Shown here piece by piece: positions 1 through 5,708 of a stretch of DNA of 5,708 bases. Made by a program: the position numbers and the translations under genes. Source of the stretch: Pseudomonadota bacterium (GTDB taxonomy: Bacteria > Pseudomonadota > Gammaproteobacteria > Burkholderiales > SG8-39); the NCBI GenBank assembly GCA_021825225.1, contig JAKAIH010000200.1, positions 1 to 5,708 on the forward strand, read 5' to 3'. The number at the start of each line of letters is the position of its first letter. Position 1 is the stretch's first letter. Below the pieces are notes generated by a model, which saw only the letters and a list, made by a program, of their open reading frames with translations, was not told the origin of the DNA and made no database searches.

Positions 1-2444
1 ACACTGTTGCTGCCCAGCGGCGTGAAATACGTAGCAGGGGTGGTCGCCGTCGAGAGATCGGTGGTGGTAATCACACCACCCAGATAGCGGCCCATGCGGA
101 TTCCATTGACCGTGTCATTGTAGTTCGCGTCCGGTGTGCTTCCTCCCGAAAATGAGACAGTCGCTGCCGTCAGCGGCGACGTCGGAAGCCCGCCCGGTGA
201 GCCGGTGTAGGGCACCGGGGCATTGCTGGTGTAGGAGGGCGGCCCCGAGGTGCCGCGTTCGCTCAGCTTGTAGTCCGAGTTTTGCATCCGCACCAGATTC
301 CCCGCCGAATCGAACAGGTAGTTCTGCGCGTTGCTTACGGCGGCCGTGGACAGACTGTAATTCGCGTTGTAAGTCGTCGTTCCGACCTTCAACGGCAGCA
401 CGACCTGTTGGCGGTAGGTGCCGCCTCCTCCTGTGACCGGAACTGCCGTGGCGCCGGCCGTTGGCGCAGCGGCAGTGCTCAGCACCGCGGCTCCACTAAT
501 GAAATCCGCGAATGGCTGGGTCGCTGCAGTGGTAGAGGTCGGGATCGCGGTAAAGCCGTAACTCAAACCGATGCCGGTGCCGACCGCGCCGCTGCTCGTA
601 CCGCCTGAAGCCGAGGCCAGGAAACCACCGCCGATGCTGCCGATGTAGCCACCGGCCGCGCAATCGGCGCCGCTGCAGCTGACCGTGTTATTGGGGTTGG
701 TACTCACAGGAACGCCGGCTACCACTGGCGCGACCGCAGCTGCGCCGAAGCCGCCTTTTTGAATCGGTACTTTGTTCGCGGATGCGGTCAGGCTCAGGTT
801 GCGCGTGCTCGGGTTCGCCGGATCGCTGGAACTGAACGACAGGTTCAGGTTCGAATCCACCGTCTGTGCAGAAAAATTCGCGCTCAGCGTGGCGCTGTTG
901 AGCGTGCCCACATTGCCGAAGCCATCGGTCGGATGGGTCGCCGCGGCAAGTACGTAGCTCGCACTACCCACCAGTTGCTGCACATTGTTGATGGTCGTTC
1001 CCGCAAGGTTGCCTGGAGTAAGCCCGATCAGCCAATGTGCGCTGGCGGCACCCAGCGAATCGGAAAACGGCGCCATCGGGCTGGTCGTCGCGAGGTCGGT
1101 GACGGCGATCTGGCCGCCGGACCAGCGGCCCATGTAATAGCTGCCGTTCGGATCGCTGAACGCATCGGCGGCAGTACCGCCCGTGAATTTGAGGTCTGCG
1201 TTTGCCACGGACACCGGCGCCTGGGAACTCAGGCCGTAGCGCAGATATGGCGACTGCAGGATTTCCGCGAGGCTATTGTCGCTCAGGACGAAATTCGAAT
1301 TGGCTGCATTGGATGCGCCCGTCGGCGAACTCAGCGAAACGAGCTCAACACCGCCGCTGACCGGCACTGCGCCGAGCACACCGTAGTGGTAGTTGCTCGT
1401 GGCAACGACTGGATTGCTGATCACCGGGCCCGCCGCTACCGGCGTCGTCGTTCCGCTTGCAGTCGTCGTCGTCTGCGTCGTGGTATTCAGGGTTGCGCCG
1501 CTCGCACCGGTCGCGGTTATCGCGACCACAGGCGCGACCACTGTCGGGGCAGTGGCGATCGGAGCTACCGCAGGCGCCGTAGTGACGGTACTCGTCGGGT
1601 CGACTACCGCGGTGCTCCGCGTCGCCGCGGATGCCTCGGCTGCTTGTTCCGTGGCAGGAGCCGTAGCGGTAGCCTCGGCGGCCTTCTCCCCCGGCGCTGC
1701 CGCTTTCTGTTCCTCGCCAGCCTTCGCCGGTGCGGCCGCTGCGTTTTCCTTCTTGCCTTCGTCCTTCGCTTCTTCCTTGGCTTTCTGCGGCCCGGGCGCC
1801 GGAGTCGGTTTGTAGAACGGCGGTATCCGCGGCAGGATCACGGGCGCCGCCTTGGTCACTGGGGCGAAACCAACCTGATTGCGCTGGATATCGACGCTGC
1901 CAGCATCGGTACGGATGAACGCCACCCCGACGTTGACCTTGTCGTAGGTGCCGGGCGGGGCAATGGCAGGCTGTCCAGGCGCCGGCGGCAGGATCACCAT
2001 GGGTTCATGGTCGGTACCGCGAATGCCGATCGTGGCAGTCTCGGTCCTGATCATGTAATTCTGCTTGTTGGTGTGACCGATGATGCCGGTGATGGTGCGA
2101 AAACCTCCCTGCAGCAGCGAAATGACCGCGCTTTCCTTTCCATCCGCCTTGCCGCTGTAACGGTAATTGTCGAAGCTCAGATTGGAGTTGGGACGCACCG
2201 CTATGAACCCGCCGTCCACCATTTTGATCTGTGCCGAGGCACCGGCTGCTGTGACTATCCTGTCACCCTCGTTGATTTCTGCGCCTTTCACCAGTGCCCG
2301 CGTCTCGCCGGTCTTGGTGATCAGTTTGACGTCGCCGATAACGAATTGCACATTGCCGGCTGCACCGAAGGCGGCGCCGGCAAAGGATGCAAGCAGCAGC
2401 AGAACGGGAAGGGCCTTTAGCGGATTTTTCCAGGAAAATTGCAT
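1..2444 (-). CDS. Secreted FecR-domain protein with repeated beta-rich modules (3' end beyond left edge)
   Basis: The minus frame from ATG at 2444 is open for 814 codons to base 1, with no stop in the window, so the C-terminus is missing. The start is supported by AAGGTG six bases upstream. Residues 1-28 are a Sec signal peptide (K6, K10, an LLLLAS core, cleavage near AFGA-A) with no lipobox cysteine. Residues about 30-165 are a FecR domain, including the family motif TIGIRGTD at 138-145. Residues 212-282 are a Lys/Glu/Ala/Pro-rich linker, followed by a Thr/Val/Ala-rich stretch to about 350 with a poly-Thr tract at 320-335. From 351 on the chain is Gly/Ser/Asn-rich and strand-like, in two related modules (351-632 and about 645 onward). 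It lies 21 bases behind the TPR/barrel gene, so co-transcription is likely. There is no anti-sigma N-domain or transmembrane helix, so an iron-signalling role should not be assumed. The FecR assignment is firm; the surface or secreted role is inferred. Confidence 0.88.
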   Translation of the reverse strand, partial: MQFSWKNPLKALPVLLLLASFAGAAFGAAGNVQFVIGDVKLITKTGETRALVKGAEINEGDRIVTAAGASAQIKMVDGGFIAVRPNSNLSFDNYRYSGKADGKESAVISLLQGGFRTITGIIGHTNKQNYMIRTETATIGIRGTDHEPMVILPPAPGQPAIAPPGTYDKVNVGVAFIRTDAGSVDIQRNQVGFAPVTKAAPVILPRIPPFYKPTPAPGPQKAKEEAKDEGKKENAAAAPAKAGEEQKAAAPGEKAAEATATAPATEQAAEASAATRSTAVVDPTSTVTTAPAVAPIATAPTVVAPVVAITATGASGATLNTTTQTTTTASGTTTPVAAGPVISNPVVATSNYHYGVLGAVPVSGGVELVSLSSPTGASNAANSNFVLSDNSLAEILQSPYLRYGLSSQAPVSVANADLKFTGGTAADAFSDPNGSYYMGRWSGGQIAVTDLATTSPMAPFSDSLGAASAHWLIGLTPGNLAGTTINNVQQLVGSASYVLAAATHPTDGFGNVGTLNSATLSANFSAQTVDSNLNLSFSSSDPANPSTRNLSLTASANKVPIQKGGFGAAAVAPVVAGVPVSTNPNNTVSCSGADCAAGGYIGSIGGGFLASASGGTSSGAVGTGIGLSYGFTAIPTSTTAATQPFADFISGAAVLSTAAAPTAGATAVPVTGGGGTYRQQVVLPLKVGTTTYNANYSLSTAAVSNAQNYLFDSAGNLVRMQNSDYKLSERGTSGPPSYTSNAPVPYTGSPGGLPTSPLTAATVSFSGGSTPDANYNDTVNGIRMGRYLGGVITTTDLSTATTPATYFTPLGSNS

Positions 2445-2450
2445 GGCATT

Positions 2451-2457
2451 CACCTTC
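2451..2457 (-). promoter_or_regulatory. Ribosome binding site of the FecR-domain gene
   Basis: Read on the minus strand the bases are GAAGGTG, ending six bases before the ATG at 2444. This decides the start: another ATG at 2449 overlaps the spacer but is in a different frame and has poorer spacing. The site sits in the 21-base gap after the stop codon of the upstream gene, which fits translation from a shared transcript. Confidence 0.7.
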
Positions 2458-2465
2458 TGCAAGAA

Positions 2466-3818
2466 TTATTTGAAGTCGCGACGGACCGTGATTGAAACGT
2501 CGGTACGGTCAAACTTGTAAATGACGATATTGGAGTCGTTGCGCATGTATGTGATTTGCGGCCGCAACGTCCAGGCCTTTTCGAAATGCCAATTGAGGCC
2601 GAGATTGGCGTCGTACTGCTTGTCGTCGCGAATCACCGATTCGGTGGGAGAACTGAATGCCGCGTTGGCAATCTGGTATTTGCCAAACTGCGCACCGAGT
2701 CCGGCGAACAATTCAGCCTTCTGGTTGAGCTGCACCTGTCCGCCCAGGCGCAGACCGATGAAGCGCTTGCCGCCATCAGCGCGCAGCGGGGCCCGCTCAT
2801 CCCCGGTGAACAGGCTCGCCATGGCCAAAGCCTTGCCGTCATTGATGAGGTGCAGCCAGTTGGCGCCGTAGGTGGATTGGTCGAAGTTGTTGACGCTGAT
2901 CGTCGGCTCGAAACGGAAGTTCGCGTACTGCCCGAACAGGCTTAGCTGGTTGGCGGGATTGAGCAGACGGCGCCATTCAGCGTTGACACCGTTGGTATCG
3001 CGATTGGTCTTCCCGTCAAGCTCATACCTGCCGGCGATGATACCCAAACGAAGGACGCCGGGGCCTTCGCCCATCGCGAGGCCGGCCCGCAGATCGAGGC
3101 TGGTGGAGTCGAACTGGTCCTGGGTCATGTTGCTGCGGCTGCGTGCGTCCGCGCCGGCGTAAACGCCCAACTCGGGTGTGATCTGGTGGCTGACCTCGCC
3201 GCCGAACGCGTATGCAAGATAATCGTCGGGGGCCTTAACGCCAGTCGGGTTCAGGGTAAAAATCAAATTGCCCAGGGCCGGCACCGCTATTTGGCTTTGG
3301 CTGGTCGCGAAATTGACGTTGCTATCATGGCCGATGCCAGCCTCGAAATAACCCGTTCCCTTGGTCTTCTTGGCGTTTTCCTGCTTCTCGATCGCTGCCA
3401 GGTAGTTGTTTACGGTCGCCTTGGCCGCCGCAGGGGGATTCTGCGTAAGCACGGTTTCGAATTCGGTTTTGGCACGGGTGAAGTCGCCCAATTGAAAGTA
3501 TGCGCGCCCCATGTCTATGCGCGCGCCGGCAAAATTTGGATCTGTCGCGAGTACGCGCTCGAATGCGAGTGTTGCCTTGTCCGGCTTGCCGCTGTCCAGC
3601 GCAGCTATGCCCAGGAGGTAGTCGTAGCGGATATTGCCGGATTGCTGAAACTCAAACGGTTCCAGCAGGGAATAGGCCTCGGCGGCCTTGCCTTGCTTCA
3701 TCAAGGCATCCGCCTTATCCAGGTCGGGATCAGCGGCAAATGCGCAATTTCCCATCATCCACAAACCGAAGCCCAGAGCGAGCAGCGTCCGCTTGACCGA
3801 AAATGAATTCGTTATCAA
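2466..3818 (-). CDS. Slam-like outer-membrane protein: TPR domain plus C-terminal beta-barrel
   Basis: This is probably 450 residues from a TTG start at 3818. Residues 1-28 are a signal peptide (K9-R10, hydrophobic core, cleavage near AFA-AD). C25 does not sit in a lipobox (MGNC). Residues about 34-130 hold two clear TPR units (about 64-97 and 98-130) and a preceding half unit; 131-154 is a Lys-rich linker. Residues 155-450 are a beta-barrel: it opens with FEAGIGHDSNVN, continues with alternating amphipathic strands, and ends in DVSITVRRDF, an outer-membrane-type terminus. An N-terminal TPR domain with a barrel of about 290 residues is the layout of the Slam/DUF560 family, which moves TbpB-like cargo across the outer membrane. 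The next gene encodes a large secreted protein, so this may be its translocator. The frame extends upstream to an ATG at 3938, but that start would bury the signal peptide about 50 residues in. A general TPR/porin-like protein is the alternative. Confidence 0.82.
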   Translation of the reverse strand: MITNSFSVKRTLLALGFGLWMMGNCAFAADPDLDKADALMKQGKAAEAYSLLEPFEFQQSGNIRYDYLLGIAALDSGKPDKATLAFERVLATDPNFAGARIDMGRAYFQLGDFTRAKTEFETVLTQNPPAAAKATVNNYLAAIEKQENAKKTKGTGYFEAGIGHDSNVNFATSQSQIAVPALGNLIFTLNPTGVKAPDDYLAYAFGGEVSHQITPELGVYAGADARSRSNMTQDQFDSTSLDLRAGLAMGEGPGVLRLGIIAGRYELDGKTNRDTNGVNAEWRRLLNPANQLSLFGQYANFRFEPTISVNNFDQSTYGANWLHLINDGKALAMASLFTGDERAPLRADGGKRFIGLRLGGQVQLNQKAELFAGLGAQFGKYQIANAAFSSPTESVIRDDKQYDANLGLNWHFEKAWTLRPQITYMRNDSNIVIYKFDRTDVSITVRRDFK

Positions 3819-4081: not shown

Positions 4082-4171
4082 GCCAGGGTGGTGAAATTGG
4101 TATACACAGCGGGCTTAAAACCCGCCGCCGCTAATACCGGCATGCCGGTTCGATTCCGGTCCCTGGCACCA
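4082..4171 (+). tRNA. tRNA-Leu (anticodon UAA)
   Basis: This is a complete class II tRNA. The acceptor stem GCCAGGG (4082-4088) pairs with CCCTGGC (4161-4167), followed by discriminator A4168 and an encoded CCA (4169-4171). The anticodon stem GCGGG/CCCGC (4109-4113 and 4121-4125) closes the seven-base loop CTTAAAA, with anticodon TAA at 4116-4118. The long variable arm has a GCCG/CGGC stem (4127-4130 and 4138-4141). The T arm has loop TTCGATT (4149-4155). Anticodon UAA with a long variable arm identifies a leucine tRNA reading UUA and, by wobble, UUG. It lies between the TPR/barrel gene and the DUF1178 gene. No convincing intrinsic terminator follows it. Confidence 0.97.
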
Positions 4172-4287: not shown

Positions 4288-4719
4288 ATGATCGTATTCG
4301 ACCTTATCTGCAGGGATCATCACCGCTTCGAAGGCTGGTTCGCCTCGGGCGAGGATTTTTCTTCGCAGCAAAATCGTAGCCTGCTTAGTTGCCCTGTATG
4401 CGGCAGCGTGCATGTAGAAAAGCTTCCGGCCGCCAAGATAAGAAAGCAATCGACGGAGCCTGTGGAATCCGCACCAAGCAGCGCCGTTGCACCCGCGCGT
4501 AGCGACAAGGCTGATATCTCTCGCGTTCTAGATTACATCCTGACCCACACCGAAGACGTGGGAAAAACTTTTGCCGATGAGGCGCGCAAAATCCATTACG
4601 ACGAAGCGCCCCGGCGCAACATACGTGGAGTAGCCAGCCGCGACGAAACGGAAGATCTGCGTGAGGAAGGGATCCCGGTATTTTCCCTGCCGATTCCGCC
4701 ACAGGATCAATGGAATTAG
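4288..4719 (+). CDS. DUF1178 family protein
   Basis: This 143-residue protein has the usual length and both conserved ends of the DUF1178 family. The N-terminus reads MIVFDLICRDHHRFEGWF, then SSEDF-like SGEDF at 20-24. A CPVCG motif at 35-39 with C8 and H11/H12 could form a zinc-ribbon-like site. After a variable middle (about 50-75), the C-terminus carries the family's conserved block around RGVASRDETEDLREEGIPV, ending in a Pro-rich tail. It has no signal peptide or membrane segment, so it is probably cytoplasmic. The family's function is not established; metal binding is inferred from the cysteines. The start is fixed by the conserved MIV(F/Y)DL opening, although the upstream GGAAA is a weak ribosome site. 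It follows tRNA-Leu by 116 bases and converges on the ankyrin gene. Confidence 0.93.
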   Translation: MIVFDLICRDHHRFEGWFASGEDFSSQQNRSLLSCPVCGSVHVEKLPAAKIRKQSTEPVESAPSSAVAPARSDKADISRVLDYILTHTEDVGKTFADEARKIHYDEAPRRNIRGVASRDETEDLREEGIPVFSLPIPPQDQWN

Positions 4720-4797: not shown

Positions 4798-5439
4798 CTA
4801 TTCCTTCGCCCCCGCCTGCTTTAGCAGGTTCGCGATGTCGGTATTCCCCGCTTTCAGAGCCCATTGAAGCGCAGTCGCGCCGGACTCGCTTTTGATATTC
4901 GGATCCGCCACTTCCCAGAGCAACAGCTTCACCGTATCGAAATGGCCCTCGCGAGCTGCCATCATCAGTGCCGAAACGCCGCTAGGTGCGACCGCATCGA
5001 TGTCCGCTCCTTTTTCAAGCAGGTATTTGACTATTTCGGTTTTACCGCGCCAGGCGGCGTAAATCAACGGATTCCAGCCTGTCAGATTGATTCTGGCCCC
5101 GCGCTCGATCAATAGCTTTACCAGCTCGAGGTCGCCCTTGGCCGCTGCCAGCATCAGCACGGTCTCACCGTATTGATTTCTGGCGTCAACTTTGGCGTTC
5201 AATTGCAGCAGGCGCTTGGCCAAGTCGGTATGGTTTTCCTGGACGGCGATCATGAGCAGGGTATTCGCGCCGGAATCGGTCGTGTTCACGTCCATGCCGC
5301 GCGCAAGCAAGGCCTCGGCAACAGGACGGTCGTCCAGTTTGATCGCCGCGAGCAAGTCTTCGTAGGATCCAGCCAGAGCGCTCGATGCCGTAGTGAGAAT
5401 AATCACTATATACAATAATCGCAATAGCATACGAAACAT
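4798..5439 (-). CDS. Exported ankyrin-repeat protein
   Basis: This 213-residue protein has a signal peptide at 1-23 (R3, R7, core LLYIVIILTT, cleavage at ALA-G), so it is probably periplasmic. The rest is six ankyrin units: 25-56 (degenerate cap), 57-90, 91-122, 123-153, 154-186 and 187-213 (short C-terminal cap). Consensus pieces are visible, such as LMLAAAKGDLELVKLLIERGA and LLEKGADIDA. Unit 4 lacks the usual G-x-T-PL opening and has WNPLIYAA instead; unit 5 has WEVADPN where a Gly usually precedes AD. Ankyrin stacks mediate protein-protein contacts, and no enzymatic domain is present. The gene begins 14 bases after the TatD-family stop and is probably co-transcribed. A Shine-Dalgarno site is not evident before ATG 5439 or before the in-frame ATG at codon 4, so translational coupling is possible. 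The partner is unknown. Confidence 0.93.
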   Translation of the reverse strand: MFRMLLRLLYIVIILTTASSALAGSYEDLLAAIKLDDRPVAEALLARGMDVNTTDSGANTLLMIAVQENHTDLAKRLLQLNAKVDARNQYGETVLMLAAAKGDLELVKLLIERGARINLTGWNPLIYAAWRGKTEIVKYLLEKGADIDAVAPSGVSALMMAAREGHFDTVKLLLWEVADPNIKSESGATALQWALKAGNTDIANLLKQAGAKE

Positions 5440-5453
5440 TATTAAAGTTATAT

Positions 5454-5708
5454 CTAGATTATTAAAGGGCGAAAAAGCCTGAAAAAATTGGCTGTCGTCG
5501 CCTCCTCCAAAGCCTCTAGCGGAATTCCGCGCAGGCTGGCAATTTCCTCTGCTACATGCCGGACCCAGCCCGGTTCGTTGCTTTTTCCGCGATGCGGGAC
5601 CGGTGCGAGGTATGGGGAATCGGTTTCGACCAGCATGCGTTCCAAGGGTATCGCTTTGGCCACTGCCTTGAGCGCCTGCGCATTTTTGAAGGTGACGATG
5701 CCCGAAAA
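5454..5708 (-). CDS. TatD/YcfH-family metal-dependent hydrolase, C-terminal part (5' end beyond right edge)
   Basis: The last 84 codons are present; the frame is open through base 5708 and ends at TAG (5454-5456). The fragment starts [17 protein letters not shown] and contains [20 protein letters not shown] and, near the end, TTANFFRLF. These are the hallmark C-terminal blocks of the TatD/YcfH family of TIM-barrel metalloenzymes, with the VETDSPY Asp as a metal and active-site residue. Full-length members are about 250-265 residues, so roughly two thirds lies outside the window. Family members are cytoplasmic and several have DNase activity. The variant here is closest, from memory, to E. coli YcfH rather than TatD itself. 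It is followed after 14 bases by the ankyrin gene. A GTG at 5663 is only an internal Val codon, not the start. Confidence 0.93.

Follow-up and report, generated by a model that had tools for sequence, protein, structure and literature searches.

A predicted type XI secretion pair: a Slam-like outer-membrane protein with a FecR-domain cargo bearing TbpB-like modules

Within the type XI secretion system (T11SS), Slam1, Slam2 and the other outer-membrane proteins (OMPs) of cluster 1 serve the cargo proteins TbpB, LbpB, fHbp and HpuA. PMC8406197 defines the system, its ten clusters and a soluble type of cargo, and describes the nine clusters beyond cluster 1, mostly from water and soil organisms, as having no characterised member. 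PMC12282271 analyses clusters 1 and 3 and places all experimentally verified T11SS proteins in the animal-associated cluster 1. Here we analyse a gene pair on contig JAKAIH010000200.1 of the Pseudomonadota bacterium assembly GCA_021825225.1 (Burkholderiales, SG8-39): a Slam-like OMP and, next to it, a large protein with a FecR domain, hereafter the cargo. The window, that is, the whole stretch of DNA analysed, is the entire contig of 5708 bases, in an assembly of 3.13 Mb and 544 contigs. Like Slam1, Slam2 and the other cluster 1 OMPs, the OMP of the window belongs to the SlipAM family, combines tetratricopeptide repeats (TPRs) with a barrel and matches classical Slams from end to end; as with TbpB, LbpB, fHbp and HpuA, a protein with a predicted TbpB-like handle and barrel is encoded next door. 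Sequence, fold and linkage support the assignment of the pair to the T11SS, secretion itself being predicted, and we consider it very probable that the two proteins are a translocon and its cargo.

The Slam-like protein and its cargo

The features of the pair are as follows (window coordinates):

2466..3818, minus strand: Slam-like (SlipAM/DUF560) outer-membrane protein, 450 residues, TTG start (PF04575, hhalign)
3357..3728, minus strand: TPR region, residues 31-154 of the Slam-like protein (TPR_19, TPR_2, TPR_16 and predicted helices)
2472..3347, minus strand: SlipAM barrel region, residues 158-449 (PF04575 profile 5-288 of 288)
2445..2465, minus strand: 21-base gap containing AGAAGGTG, which resembles a ribosome-binding site (sequence itself)
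3..2444, minus strand: FecR-domain cargo protein, 814 residues shown, 3' end lost where the contig stops (open frame)
2361..2444, minus strand: predicted signal peptide, cargo residues 1-28, without a lipobox (by eye)
2010..2264, minus strand: FecR domain, cargo residues 61-145 (PF04773, 37.3 bits against a cut-off of 24)
1413..1847, minus strand: linker rich in Ala, Thr, Pro, Glu and Lys, about residues 200-344 (read from the sequence)
450..1412, minus strand: module 1, handle and TbpB-like barrel, residues 345-665 (AlphaFold2, fold matches, module profile)
3..413, minus strand: start of module 2, cut off (beginning placed by eye; module profile match at residues 777-805)

The original prediction was of an exported TPR and barrel protein of about 450 residues followed, 21 bases on, by a large FecR protein. 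Calling of open reading frames (ORFs) confirmed both, on the minus strand, with exactly 21 bases (2445-2465) between the stop codon of the Slam-like ORF and the ATG of the FecR ORF at 2444. The TTG start of the Slam-like ORF sits 7 bases past a GGGAG read from the sequence. Because the window is the entire contig, the FecR ORF is still open at base 3 and the C-terminus of the cargo is missing.

PF04575 (SlipAM, formerly DUF560) matched the 450-residue protein with 40.4 bits (cut-off 22) over positions 5-288 of its 288. TPR matches spanned residues 33-134, TPR_19 scoring 52.1 against a cut-off of 25 and other TPR models matching too, while Slam's own TPR model, PF24575, scored 17.2 against a cut-off of 35.2. 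For comparison with known Slam proteins, we call "classical" the 11 loci of the class draw described below (L230-L240), which come from five genomes, each also matching TbpB_B_D. An alignment of the window's protein with 24 relatives (A1, 25 members) was compared with that of 10 classical-group proteins (A5). The two profiles aligned over 397 columns, from the TPRs through the last strand, with an hhalign probability of 99.9 and an E-value of 1.2e-32; 19 of the 25 members of A1, the window's protein included, matched PF04575 at E<=0.01. The proposed Slam/DUF560 identity thus holds, both by the Pfam match above cut-off and by the end-to-end match to classical Slams, and the 450-residue protein is identified, from its sequence, as a T11SS outer-membrane protein.

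An alignment-free AlphaFold2 model of the OMP contained helices between residues 31 and 154, mostly with a predicted local distance difference test score (pLDDT) of 82-95, and was poor outside the TPRs; an amphipathicity scan was not decisive for the strands. Since this model gave no usable barrel, the number of strands rests on homology. When the OMP profile was searched against PDB sequences, nearly all of the 60 matches listed were to TPRs, with a few weak ones to OmpX, and no match to the protein was found among plasmid records. The NCBIfam models BcsC, PgaA and EpsL matched it weakly, all far below cut-off, which would suit a polysaccharide-export or general porin-type protein with the FecR protein as a periplasmic scaffold. 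We regard this as very improbable in view of the full-length SlipAM match and the 397-column match to classical Slams. Moreover, the cargo module has the fold of Slam-type surface proteins, and no polysaccharide gene was found among the four window proteins scanned.

For residues 345-665 of the cargo, AlphaFold2 predicted a handle followed by a barrel (pLDDT 86.2, predicted template modelling score 0.87; model residue = protein residue minus 344). The predicted strands include 514-523, 528-537, 600-609 and 624-633, and they overlap the segments 522-537 and 608-631, in which the original prediction had seen a likeness to TbpB-type barrels. In a Foldseek search against the PDB, the top four matches were TbpB and LbpB, and all 50 matches listed by VIA-align were TbpB, LbpB, NHBA, fHbp, HphA, HpuA or an entry titled "Surface Lipoprotein". 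Module 1 is thus predicted to be a TbpB-like handle and barrel, and the window's cargo to contain the eight-stranded domain of this type.

The Gly/Ser-rich beta modules that had been proposed to follow the FecR domain proved to be true repeats. A profile built from the relatives' cargos, and seeded from the C-termini of 50 of the 86 complete ones, matched module 1 at residues 431-657 (window 474-1154) with 128 bits and the start of the second module at residues 777-805 with an independent E-value of 4.8e-5; it had no match in 430 shuffled cargos. With this C-terminus-seeded profile, 72 of the 86 distinct complete cargos bear one to six modules, the last of them 0-18 residues from the end. Eight complete relatives of the same genus have cargos of 1118-1570 residues with three or four modules, and the linkers of 74 relatives' cargos, pooled, contain 22% Ala and 15% Thr. 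The profile misses divergent barrels, the cargos of loci L077, L091 and L358 ending in one by eye.

Several results weigh against reading the pair as a Slam-type translocon with TbpB-like cargo. The Foldseek matches were modest, with a single one at E<=0.001, template modelling scores of 0.2-0.3 for the top four and unrelated lyases from rank 5 on. The profile search that had been proposed for a TbpB barrel domain failed in the window's cargo, where PF01298 (TbpB_B_D) had no match, and PF01298 matched weakly only 3 of the 139 rows of the module alignment A3 (144 sequences prepared, 138 used, one of them twice), with a best E-value of 5e-4. The hhalign comparison of the modules with 12 classical TbpB_B_D sequences was weak, and the cargo of the window is incomplete, being cut at the contig end. 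The module profile and the FecR domain had no match among PDB sequences.

Sequence bridges from the modules to known cargo domains exist but are thin. Two homologues, P0003 and P0014, matched TbpB_B_D in Pfam at about 41 bits (cut-off 26); the module profile found four modules in the former and three in the latter. In both, the final module is C-terminal and the TbpB_B_D stretch separates it from the one before; in P0014, FecR precedes the array. That stretch itself had no match to the module profile, a further point on the opposing side, and the two proteins thus link the two barrel types by position and not by sequence. The finding left our estimates unchanged because the fold comparison carries the argument. 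The NCBIfam model "Slam-dependent surface lipoprotein" matched the module of the short cargo of L087 (30.3 bits, cut-off 80, E 4.5e-7), and the module profile detected the barrels of the protein L353, in which three stretches are TbpB_B_D.

Linkage of FecR and SlipAM genes across genomes

By similarity to the window's OMP, we gathered 109 distinct Slam genes, from forty loci of relatives and 79 named loci (the best 80 of 168 matches). A FecR gene was counted as just downstream if it lay on the same strand, with ORFs called from the longest start, and either overlapped the Slam gene or followed within 333 bases. It was present just downstream of 99 of these genes (within 100 bases in 93) and just upstream of one. 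Nine had none: four at loci where the contig ends within 236 bases (L089, L115, L116, L131), and five despite room downstream (L076, L099, L103, L114 for its first gene, and L118). At L103:3371-4567, the FecR-less Slam relative follows a protein of 398 residues that ends in what reads as a TbpB-type barrel, a possible non-FecR soluble cargo. Among the 79 named loci, 28 were titled Gallionellaceae/Gallionellales or Ferrovum, in a sample not controlled for ecology.

Because this search was biased toward the window's own OMP, genomes were also drawn by Pfam family. The class draw gave matches in 28 of 274 genomes, and the 38 rows, minus the window and two fragments, left 35 loci, at 19 of which FecR adjoins the SlipAM gene (one, L256, being a broken fragment set, and another, L258, having FecR upstream); none of the 11 classical-group loci had FecR beside it. 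The phylum draw had matches in 69 of 398 genomes; 60 of 88 rows were examined, the others being 12 already examined or their pieces, one additional piece of a gene, nine that fell below the cut-off and six more with weak matches. FecR adjoins 15 of these 60 loci, upstream in five and with weak FecR matches at L347 and L348. Over the three samples, FecR adjoins 100 of 109, 19 of 35 and 15 of 60 loci, and its presence is no peculiarity of the window.

A quick tree of 118 OMPs (after thinning), made with a simple model and carrying a warning for long branches, placed the 11 classical rows on one side of a branch with a support of 99 and the remaining 107 on the other. Its largest inner group comprises 102 rows, of which 95 are FecR-linked, four are not and three lie at contig edges; the FecR label changes 9 times on the tree, against 20.5 in shuffles.

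The pair varies in its arrangement. Gene order is reversed at L144, L258, L334, L337, L340, L342 and L346. Tandem copies occur at L117, L120, L165, L153:12606-14249, L242, L244 and L257, either as two Slam-FecR pairs per locus or as an additional FecR or module protein close to the first. The Slam-adjacent cargos L355:6135-9755 and L356:6180-9242 have three modules each and no FecR match; their N-terminus may be a decayed FecR domain. Two contigs carry unexpected titles, by transfer, mis-binning or mislabelling: L137, whose pair is close to betaproteobacterial ones, is titled Desulfobacterales, and the metagenome contig L162 is titled Bordetella parapertussis, with an OMP match of 342.0 bits that equals that of L077, from a genome of the window's own family.

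The rest of the window holds a plus-strand tRNA-Leu (TAA) at 4082-4171, just upstream of the divergent Slam gene, and two ordinary neighbours, a DUF1178 protein (4288-4719, plus strand, Pfam) and an exported-looking ankyrin-repeat protein (4798-5439, minus strand). At 5454-5708 lies what we take, from a motif, to be the C-terminal end of a TatD-family nuclease.

Possible roles of the FecR domain

The explanation that we hold to be fairly probable overall is that the Slam-family OMP moves the downstream protein, with its FecR domain and TbpB-like modules, to the cell surface, FecR likely docking. The cargo would be exported by Sec through an ordinary non-lipid signal peptide, as its sequence suggests, and would be kept unfolded in the periplasm, as in the known Slam system. 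The Slam-like protein would then recognise the barrel modules, the last of which is C-terminal in the relatives, and pass them outward, so that the tandem barrels would form, on the cell surface, an array of several domains for binding or adhesion. Last to arrive, the N-terminal FecR domain would likely dock at the channel or below it, in place of the lipid that anchors classical Slam cargo. This docking step is the least certain one, and we would put it at somewhat short of an even chance.

Inspection by eye and pattern matching were used to assess signal peptides and the absence of a lipobox. As originally noted, the signal peptide of the window's cargo has no lipobox by eye, and in 94 of 100 relatives' cargos the pattern found no lipobox-like match in the first 70 residues. 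This would also suit a cargo that, like the soluble TbpB-barrel cargo of T11SS subcluster 1B, leaves the cell entirely and enters the medium, release having been the original proposal, with FecR simply as its N-terminal effector domain; soluble T11SS cargo is described in PMC8406197. We consider such release possible but doubtful, as it leaves without explanation the loci where FecR stands beside the OMP alone or in a gene of its own. FecR partners in which neither the profile nor the eye found a barrel occur at L161, L163, L157, L114, L117 (first pair), L098, L249, L250 and L254, the label "FecR-only" being a judgement by profile and reading because the module profile misses divergent barrels. 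Those in the Gallionellaceae-type OMP group lie at L117:6531-7355, L157:3552-4439, L161:9301-10122 and L163:9296-10150, and the ones of L117, L157 and L161 share a C-terminus reading PPKVF or PGQVF. At L126:5057-6650, L132:9119-14327 and L135:3957-7293, a short gene of its own encodes FecR, and the gene after it overlaps or lies one base apart, both halves beginning with a signal-peptide-like sequence. This next gene encodes four modules at L132 and three at L135, and at L126 it shows no module up to the point where the contig stops. At L135, the segment that usually follows FecR sits in the second protein, behind its own signal-peptide-like start.

FecR is thus often kept beside OMPs in partners lacking a recognisable barrel, which favours a role at the channel, and docking or retention of FecR there is favoured over simple release. 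The same split and FecR-only partners speak against a tether that is covalent only and thereby count against our overall explanation as well. They would fit a FecR domain that assists the Slam-like protein from the periplasm, as its adaptor or chaperone, whether in cis or in trans, with the barrels as the sole surface part and never anchored by FecR. The separate signal-peptide-like starts at L126, L132 and L135 speak for such an adaptor, as do the FecR-only partners; in most loci, however, FecR and the barrels are one protein, which a free adaptor would not need, and we find this reading rather unlikely.

Docking at the channel has a precedent by analogy: retention modules, as described in PMC13090378, reside in the periplasm and anchor adhesins at the channels of the type I secretion system (T1SS) and of type Vb secretion, and they offer a precedent for what FecR could do here. 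For a comparison with the LapA retention module (set A6), 83 of 100 cargos had the motif used for cutting out FecR, 66 remained after thinning, and 64 plus the window were used. Of these 65 FecR regions, 62 resembled the module (E<=0.01). Several observations count against docking of the LapA kind. On the window's own FecR region the NCBIfam model NF033682 scored 35.8 bits, below its cut-off of 50, and the model was also matched by all 20 control FecR proteins located away from Slam matches (19 on other contigs, one 0.8 Mb away). As the controls match equally, the resemblance is a property of the FecR family and not specific to these cargos, and we discarded it as specific evidence. A search for a LapG-type protease succeeded in 24 of 60 relatives and detected none in 11 pair-carrying genomes at least 96% complete; LapG-like sites occurred in 11 of 95 cargos, against 6.7 +/- 2.5 in shuffles, and were thus not clearly enriched. 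LapG-regulated release is therefore not a general feature, and we rejected it as a general mechanism.

The FecR protein could instead be an anti-sigma or signalling protein whose position beside the Slam gene is regulatory. There are known cases of FecR regulator genes close to classical Slam genes, which also counts against our explanation: PMC11233812 describes a Lysobacter cluster with a sigma factor, a FecR family regulator, a TbpB homologue and a Slam gene, and PMC12075148 lists fecIR and slam together in Acinetobacter metal uptake. The window's cargo does have a PF04773 domain. It departs from FecR anti-sigma proteins, which have a cytoplasmic anti-sigma N-terminus and one membrane helix: the FecR domain alone was detected, with no anti-sigma domain, a signal peptide (by eye) precedes it, and the cargos of relatives end in barrels. 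No sigma-factor gene was found among the four window proteins scanned. We consider a regulatory role scarcely credible here.

Comparison with known systems

In a literature search of main texts outside subscription journals, FecR as a T11SS cargo domain was not found. "FecR" occurs 0 times in the main texts of PMC8406197 and PMC12282271, and where it appeared, in the available texts, it was a regulator or a gene name only, together with a Slam gene in the cluster of PMC11233812 and the list of PMC12075148. Many environmental bacteria have the same pair, which indicates a T11SS branch of which we found no description, present, by record titles, in freshwater iron oxidisers. The pair provides a concrete cargo family for this broad branch, FecR standing beside 34 of the 95 SlipAM loci examined in the class and phylum draws, and makes it simple to test by what means a cargo without a lipid might stay on the surface. 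We advance, as a speculative proposal, that in the environmental branch of the T11SS FecR docks periplasmically at the channel formed by the Slam-like protein, whether in cis or in trans, and keeps one to six TbpB-like barrels outside without a lipid. If true, this would be a third route, after those of LapA (T1SS) and CdrA (type Vb), by which giant surface proteins are retained by a periplasmic module of FecR fold.

LapA and the CdrA protein of P. aeruginosa resemble the cargo described here in carrying a FecR-like domain on a giant surface protein, proposed here to stay at the channel. They differ in their secretion route; the resemblance is general to FecR domains, and clear LapG control was not seen here. 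The soluble T11SS cargos HrpC/haemophilin and TbpBBDsol, as presented in the portion of PMC8406197 at hand, share with the cargo a Sec signal without a lipobox and a barrel, and HphA is among the fold matches of the window's module; being free of a lipobox, the window's cargo would fall in the soluble subtype. Unlike it, the soluble cargo of the main text of that paper has a single barrel and no FecR domain. Surface proteins of Sphingomonas and Psychrobacter, described in PMC12282271, resemble the cargo in having a low-complexity N-terminal stretch followed by two or three handle-barrel pairs, but their N-terminal repeats are of a Pro-Thr type, and FecR is absent from that main text.

Compared with cluster 1, the OMPs described here are set apart from the classical rows in the quick tree, and the cargo is non-lipidated, with FecR at its start and up to six modules. 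The pair is thus a new cargo architecture on a broad branch of a known system, and not a new kind of system.

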